IMG/VR virus record: IMGVR_UViG_3300002835_000066
Location: 64,001 to 105,180 of that record
Direction: 5' to 3' (one strand)
DNA length: 41,180 nt
Source: a virus
Shown here: one piece after another, positions 17,457 through 17,866 of the stretch
Position numbering within the stretch: position 1 is the first letter of the stretch
How the letters are laid out: every line of letters begins with the position of its first letter
Position numbers and translations under genes: made by a program
The notes under the pieces: generated by a model
What the model saw: only the letters and a program-made list of their open reading frames with translations
Told to the model about the DNA's origin: nothing
Database searches by the model: none

Positions 17457-17504
17457 ATAAAACTCTTTAGGACAATAACTTTAGAAGGAAGATACATTGC
17501 CGGT

Positions 17505-17845
17505 TTAGAAGCCATGGTAGTGCCCCTGAAAGGCACTACCTAGACTTGGACATTGCCATGGCCTGTCATCCTTTGTTGTCTGTTCCCCGATTAACTAGCT
17601 CGTATCGCTGTTAATCGCTACCGGTTGCCCTGTAAAGTTTAATGGGACTGTAGTGAGACTTCCGTCTCTGCAACGCATGTTCTGTGACTTCAAGACAAAG
17701 TATATCACAGACTCATTCAGGGTTCGCCTACCTAACGAGAGCCCTGTCGGTATTCCCTGACCTCACGATCAGGCATACTCCAGAATCCAGCCGCATTCAT
17801 TCGTGGTGCAACCTCAAGGAGGATTGTGACACATGCACAATCATA
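17505..17845. ncRNA. Candidate structured RNA of unknown class
   Basis: The 464 bases between 17402 and 17867 have no reading of note but contain many perfect stems: GGTAGTGCC 17516-17524 with 17532-17540 (loop 7); CGATTAAC 17588-17595 with 17610-17617, continued by AGC/GCT; GAGAC 17655-17659 with 17664-17668; TCTGTGA 17681-17687 with 17705-17711; CAGGG 17718-17722 with 17742-17746; CCTGA 17756-17760 with 17769-17773; CCTC/GAGG 17812-17822; GATTGTG 17822-17828 with 17836-17842. Longer pairings (CCGGT near 17500 with ACCGG near 17620; GCCAT 17511 with ATGGC 17558) could close a multibranch domain. On the minus strand the GAGAC stem has a GGAA tetraloop of the GNRA class, which slightly favours minus. 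I could not match it to tmRNA, RNase P, tRNA or a group I intron. Confidence 0.6.
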
Positions 17846-17866
17846 ACGATGTAAGAGGGTTCTGTG

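Follow-up and report, generated by a model that had tools for sequence, protein, structure and literature searches.

A pseudoknotted RNA with paired direct repeats forms one branch of an RNA superfamily in T4-related giant phages

GOLLD and ROOL are RNAs of phages or prophages that are described as cage-forming and of unknown function, and profiles for both are obtainable from Rfam (accessible part of PMC12286853). The smaller motif Polynucleobacter-1, of 141 nt, was reported from Burkholderiales and fresh water and carries a 'y' in the second table column in the accessible part of its founding report (Weinberg et al. 2010, PMC2864571). Few large structured RNAs lack a known role, and the RNA described here is a constant feature of a broad range of environmental giant phages. 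It lies in a window of 41,180 nt, which forms the end (positions 64001-105180, 41 kb) of the 105-kb record of an environmental phage and encodes T4-like proteins, including those of head, portal and baseplate, gp46, gp47 and the late sigma factor gp55. The RNA sits at the end of a gp55-gp47-gp46-rusA gene run, on the minus strand, and is one branch of an RNA superfamily in T4-related giant phages. Like GOLLD and ROOL it is a large, complex phage RNA without known function, and the resemblance goes no further; its place is different, and coupled direct repeats, which it possesses, are not described for GOLLD or ROOL in the accessible part of the source cited above (PMC12286853). If the large phage RNAs with unknown function are counted as one kind, it may alternatively be classed as a new member of that kind.

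The locus and its conserved fold

The RNA occupies a gene-free gap of 464 bases (17403-17866) that contains no listed open frame. An earlier sequence-only reading of the window had described this gene desert and placed its right boundary at a nuclease stop, and both statements are confirmed: the gap is flanked by a convergent baseplate hub gene and a RusA-like resolvase gene, one edge being the stop of the minus-strand rusA-like ORF at 17867 and the other the stop at 17402 of a minus-one-frame continuation of the hub gene. The terminator proposed for the left edge is partly borne out, as two inverted repeats are readable by eye at 17405-17456 but are not among the calls of a consensus terminator scan. 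The neighbouring features are as follows.

17867-18448, minus strand: RusA-like resolvase gene, directly upstream of the RNA (phrog_244, E 1.3e-18)
18465-22517, minus strand: T4-like genes 46, 47 and 55 (SbcC, SbcD and late sigma factor), upstream of rusA (phrog_77, phrog_100 and phrog_12791)
16354-17178, plus strand: baseplate hub gene, a conserved neighbour convergent with the RNA (phrog_150)
17405-17456, one or both strands: two inverted repeats read by eye from the sequence, likely terminators

The continuation of the hub gene is a start-less open frame of 78 residues on the plus strand (17166-17402), which overlaps the end of that gene at a T run (ATTTTTTC) and is likely its programmed frameshift product. 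Elsewhere in the record, 28 tRNA genes were located in bases 1-20000, all on the minus strand, and no tRNA genes were found in the remainder.

A structured RNA is virtually certain to exist on the minus (rusA) strand, where a length of approximately 350-410 nt is conserved. Folding energy by itself is unremarkable. The 464-nt gap folds only slightly better than shuffled sequence (z of -2.32 for the plus and -2.21 for the minus strand), while the 410-nt minus-strand RNA presents a z of -1.44, with 8 of 100 shuffles equally good; taken alone, these values come close to the outcome, folding no better than shuffled sequence, that the sequence-only reading had named as speaking against its candidate. 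The RNA is nevertheless accepted as real because the covariation among relatives is decisive. In 67 diverse sequences, thinned to no more than 90% mutual identity over the core and with stretches over 212 nt omitted, the 53 pairs of the named structure are standard pairs in 96.6% of 3522 cells, compared with 81.0% in shuffles and 31.8-39.8% in slid controls, against which a structure derived from related alignments is favoured. Two-sided changes affect 40 of the 53 pairs and amount to 611 cells (180.5 in shuffles; none of 500 shuffles was as high). Column-pair statistics over 109 distinct copies also revealed many strongly covarying pairs; in 34 of these G-U was counted 153 times against 16 for A-C, which assigns the RNA to the rusA strand. 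The parts of the window copy are listed below.

17497-17826, minus strand: conserved core, with its 5' end near 17826 and its 3' end near 17497 (profile match and alignment)
17778-17821, minus strand: 5' domain, in which P1 (CTCC 17821-17818 with GGAG 17781-17778, nearly invariant) encloses the covarying hairpin P2 (17813-17790)
17756-17773, minus strand: hairpin P3 (covariation)
17718-17746, minus strand: hairpin B, with inner UCG/CGA pairs (99.7-100% of cells paired, two-sided changes)
17677-17716, minus strand: hairpin C, whose loop contains the 5' strand of pseudoknot D (two-sided changes in 11 of 11 pairs)
17576-17698, minus strand: pseudoknot D, 17698-17693 in the loop of hairpin C with 17581-17576 (100% of cells paired, two-sided changes in 5 of 6 pairs)
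17624-17674, minus strand: helix E, GUUGC(A) 17674-17669 with (G)GCAAC 17629-17624 (covariation; common to RaK2-like RNAs)
17655-17668, minus strand: hairpin F, with a GGAA loop and a length that differs among relatives (sequence and alignment)
17584-17647, minus strand: pseudoknot G, 17647-17644 with 17587-17584, crossing helix E (two-sided changes in 4 of 4 pairs)
17588-17617, minus strand: hairpin H (two-sided changes in 11 of 11 pairs)
17619-17752, minus strand: tentative helix A, UACCG 17752-17748 with CGGUA 17623-17619 (invariant in 4 of 5 pairs)
17553-17561, minus strand: direct repeat 1, CCATGGCAA (identity coupling with repeat 2)
17515-17541, minus strand: strong hairpin separating the two repeats (structure statistics)
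17497-17503, minus strand: direct repeat 2, CCGGCAA (identity coupling with repeat 1)

In close relatives, conserved letters extend upstream of the core to approximately 17852. Whichever way the fold is drawn, helices D and G form pseudoknots, and these lie beyond what a minimum-free-energy program can display. The perfect hairpins counted by the sequence-only reading stand in part, since several of the thermodynamic ones differ from those conserved, whereas its minus-strand GGAA loop is present as GAGAC-GGAA-GUCUC at 17668-17655, with a stem that varies among relatives. In alignment numbering, 292-309 is a better alternative to the fifth pair of helix A, and position 17619 may pair elsewhere.

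Relatives, intermediates and known RNA classes

A RusA protein search of IMG/VR yielded 80 loci, 60 of which contain the RNA according to its profile; among the other 20, one (L042) ends 68 letters past rusA. An independent RNA pattern scan gave at least 119 loci, with the RNA in 116 of the matches listed and absent from L107, L180 and L199. Pooling both searches, there are at least 159 full-length copies (the window's own included), at least 109 of them distinct; 18 partial copies were excluded from the alignments. Gene order around the RNA is highly conserved. Among 70 distinct copies at pattern-found loci, within the matches listed, rusA lies directly upstream on the same strand, 24-184 nt away, in 66, the other four having upstream sequence of only 124 nt or less, and the convergent hub gene lies downstream in 65, the other five having downstream sequence of only 338 nt or less. 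The core model found a single strong copy per record in all 15 large window-type records, up to 525 kb. In bacterial genome contigs, 40 short-pattern hits included the RNA in none (profile at most 20 bits, model at most 12.1 bits), and blastn of a 1401-base window query and three relatives' copies against cultured phages returned 25-nt chance matches only.

In cultured RaK2-like giant phages, the matching place is occupied by a gap of approximately 800 nt. It lies in 121Q between the hub gene and an endonuclease VII gene next to gp46, and likewise after endonuclease VII in XaC1. Matches to the gap sequence of 121Q occur in 40 phage records, mostly at four or five places each, and 43 distinct copies from ten RaK2-like phages were aligned. 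Their core follows the same order as the window RNA, with a GUUGC/GCAAC helix and a second helix that crosses it, then a loop-to-3' pseudoknot and a hairpin, and the RNAs end in a hairpin with coupled direct repeats on both sides. The 36 pairs of the RaK2-type structure are paired in 97.2% of 1517 cells, with two-sided changes in 34 pairs and G-U 55 times against A-C 8 times. The presence of the RNA in the cultured coliphages 121Q and PBECO4 and in Klebsiella phage RaK2 makes it testable in the laboratory.

In 121Q (L251:4776-5258) and nine other RaK2-like phages, each genome usually carries four or five unannotated copies, all on one strand and mostly 50-90 kb apart, with near-even spacing in most phages; in some, small hypothetical genes are annotated over the copies. 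Random circular placements were at least as even with a frequency of 0.0001-0.0019 in seven of eight five-copy phages, 0.0216 in the eighth, XaC1, and 0.0257 in 121Q, while the three copies of RaK2 are not evenly spaced (0.229); the phages compared are related, and these spacings are consequently not independent.

The window-type model does not match the RaK2-like copies, nor does the RaK2-type model match window-type copies in 16 window-type sources. Common descent of the two RNAs is nonetheless very probable because the order of the core, the GUUGC/GCAAC helix, the repeat design, the syntenic place and a set of intermediates all agree. In both types helix E is crossed by G, pseudoknot D is present and a hairpin with direct repeats follows. 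Both models were also run, with stricter filters owing to size, on whole PA5oct, SCTP-2, Phosso, Atu_ph07 and Vibrio phage 2.275.O, and gave nothing convincing (best E 0.21).

The intermediates lie among RusA loci. In three of these loci seemingly without the RNA, the RaK2-type model gave weak hits (E 0.083, 0.71 and 1.3), all on the rusA strand and shortly 3' of rusA; a fourth hit (E 0.86) lies elsewhere. Seven distinct loci after rusA (L063, L065, L069, L071, L076, L077 and L080) all contain the strands of E, k and D, in differing sequences, while helix G is less clear. A direct repeat of 7-10 letters around a hairpin was detected in L065, L069, L076, L077 and L080 and was read by eye in L063 and L071; because shuffled sequence also often contains repeats of this length, the evidence lies in their fixed place. 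The 5' part of four intermediates matches Polynucleobacter-1 (RF01718) at 78-96 bits, the gathering score being 37 bits, directly after rusA.

L069, 4528-4660: Polynucleobacter-1 match
L076, 4615-4759: Polynucleobacter-1 match
L077, 4568-4709: Polynucleobacter-1 match
L080, 4526-4670: Polynucleobacter-1 match

This is the only Rfam family above its cut-off anywhere in the window or its relatives. The RNAs of these four phages carry the window-style core and the hairpin with repeats in their 3' part, whereas the Polynucleobacter-1 model spans 141 nt upstream of core and repeats. The Rfam family thus probably covers just a fragment of a longer phage RNA, which provides an orphan motif with a longer context. 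The window copy does not match RF01718 at gathering score or below E 10, and the family is absent from 13 whole phage records (four window-type, four RaK2-like and five other cultured relatives). A different conserved non-coding stretch without an Rfam match directly follows rusA in L062, L066 and L075 and may represent another branch or an unrelated RNA. The remaining RusA loci without the RNA look coding by eye.

Comparison with other classes supports the earlier proposal of a phage structured RNA of unrecognised class. The window contains no Rfam family at gathering score, its gap giving chance-level hits alone below E 10, and ARAGORN found neither a tRNA nor a tmRNA in it. The sequence-only reading had seen no features of tmRNA, tRNA, group I introns or RNase P, and the ARAGORN and Rfam results agree; kinship with RNase P is unsupported. 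In window-type relatives, Rfam scans identified no GOLLD, ROOL, group I intron, tmRNA or other family. The suggestion of a divergent GOLLD relative therefore fails, and identity with GOLLD or ROOL was rejected on the lack of an Rfam match in window or relatives, with a library that is taken to include both models. In group I introns the strands of the pseudoknot follow the order P3-P7-P3'-P8-P7', which the order in the window (5' strands of E and G, 3' strand of E, hairpin H, 3' strand of G) superficially resembles. A group I intron was rejected, there being no Rfam match, no interrupted gene and no internal guide covarying with the repeats; in a search for guide pairing with both splice sites, no column was complementary to the coupled repeats. 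A literature search of open full text, with most subscription journals and bioRxiv outside it, retrieved no description of the RNA, and the accessible part of the CBB genome paper does not mention such copies (PMC5259590). Core and repeat arrangement match no described family in the searches made, and the RNA family is rated new.

Coupled direct repeats and possible modes of action

In all three groups (window-type RNAs, RusA-linked intermediates and RaK2-like RNAs), a strong hairpin lies on the 3' side of the core, with one short sequence present on both sides of it. The repeat sequence varies between phages and between copies in one genome, with both repeats changing together in each copy. 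In window-type RNAs the variable first position holds the identical base in both repeats in 95 of 109 copies (shuffle mean 41, maximum 55), the other 14 presenting a mismatch. Comparing copies at 75-97% core identity, both positions differ in 129 pairs and single differences number 0, while more distant copies (65-75% core identity) display 1031 joint and 135 single changes. Coupling at columns 371/426 and 373/428 is not clearly above shuffles. RaK2-like repeats are identical in 43/43 and 42/43 copies at two variable positions and in 30/43 at a third, looser one, which adjoins an insertion in repeat 1; in both types repeat 1 retains an insertion missing from repeat 2, of one base in RaK2-like RNAs and two bases in the window. 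In four aligned Hallingskeid copies the last repeat position is A, A, G and G, each copy being self-consistent, and in Hallingskeid, Munch, 121Q and CBB the repeat letters differ among copies, with one mismatch at coupled positions among 43 copies. That copies of one genome differ and yet agree with themselves speaks against one shared partner. Two sequences coupled by identity in one RNA, without a visible partner, hint at an undescribed mode of action, and such a rule is not known from any other RNA family.

No complementary third segment was identified within -90/+70 nt in the window type or within 180 nt on either side in the RaK2 type, and the flanking sequence examined contains no excess of the repeats' reverse complement. 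Reverse-complement words are common in the phage's own genome, yet mostly in the repetitive coding sequence of long fibre-like genes. The window's own record has such long repetitive genes at 48647-64964, whose non-coding strand is rich in ATTGCC words, and these inflate any search for repeat complements.

As a tentative reading, the RNA may be a scaffold of two-armed, base-pairing type that offers two identical pairing sites to one strand. The core would act as a rigid scaffold holding the 3' hairpin, with one copy of a short recognition sequence on each side. Both repeats would pair, jointly or alternately, with the same complementary nucleic-acid strand, and would thereby be kept identical; candidates for this strand are a target RNA specific to the individual copy and the template strand of the DNA at the RNA's own locus. 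The coupling of repeats within each copy, with no visible complementary partner nearby, is consistent with this mechanism, while the uncoupled repeat positions are unexpected under full-length pairing to one strand, the 14 window-type copies mismatched at the first repeat position also count against it, and the reverse complement is not concentrated outside the coding repeats of the own genome. In a quite unlikely wider scheme, the superfamily would make two separated identical sequences meet one complementary strand in cis, for example by transcript re-annealing between sites in its own DNA, and the four or five near-even copies of RaK2-like phages would be stations organising replication or expression.

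Identity coupling also bears on the rather unlikely alternative that the RNA forms an RNA-only structural particle of the GOLLD and ROOL kind, which would hold or mimic something during infection and use the repeats for assembly, since complementary contacts between subunits would not yield identity inside one molecule. The RNA is large, pseudoknotted and phage-borne, with no accessory protein beyond common T4-like genes, as might suit a particle resembling the cages noted above; against this stand the lack of Rfam matches and the place of the window RNA, which adjoins rusA, whereas the tRNA genes found sit in the first 20 kb of the record. It is likewise unlikely that two subunits of a single phage protein bind at the repeats, with the core displaying these sites. 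Two equal sites flanking a rigid hairpin fit a dimer, but a shared protein would not require agreement within a copy, and the coupling within copies, combined with letters that differ among the copies of Hallingskeid, Munch, 121Q and CBB, makes a one-protein explanation hard.

ColE1 RNA II and the T4 origin R-loops are precedents for RNA-DNA hybrids, in which a structured transcript lies upstream of a segment repeated downstream. A comparable hybrid at the RNA's own locus, in which repeat 1 RNA pairs with the template strand of repeat 2 and primes or controls replication, would account for agreement within a copy and would fit the one-strand, roughly even RaK2-like copies and the position of the window copy after recombination genes 46 and 47. 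This explanation is improbable, since GC skew speaks against an origin at the RNA copies: in CBB the cumulative skew keeps its direction at the five copies save the third, where it changes but was already falling over the preceding 30 kb. Moreover, window-type records have one strong copy each, RaK2 copies are unevenly spaced and the spacings of related phages are not independent. Equally improbable is a role within the 3' untranslated part of the 55-47-46-rusA messenger, as an element that protects its 3' end from decay or regulates expression. The RNA directly follows rusA, a consensus scan found no sigma-70-like promoter in between, and the 'y' scored for Polynucleobacter-1 is said to mean possibly cis-regulatory; RaK2-like copies, however, occupy unrelated intergenic places, one of them beside an oppositely directed endonuclease VII gene. 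Finally, direct repeats flanking a hairpin favour slippage, but a functionless by-product, in which one repeat is converted to the other by slippage over the hairpin when the DNA is copied, so that the two become coupled within a copy, is highly improbable, because conversion would also have copied the retained insertion of repeat 1 and the uncoupled neighbouring positions, and the arrangement is kept across branches with entirely different repeat sequences.
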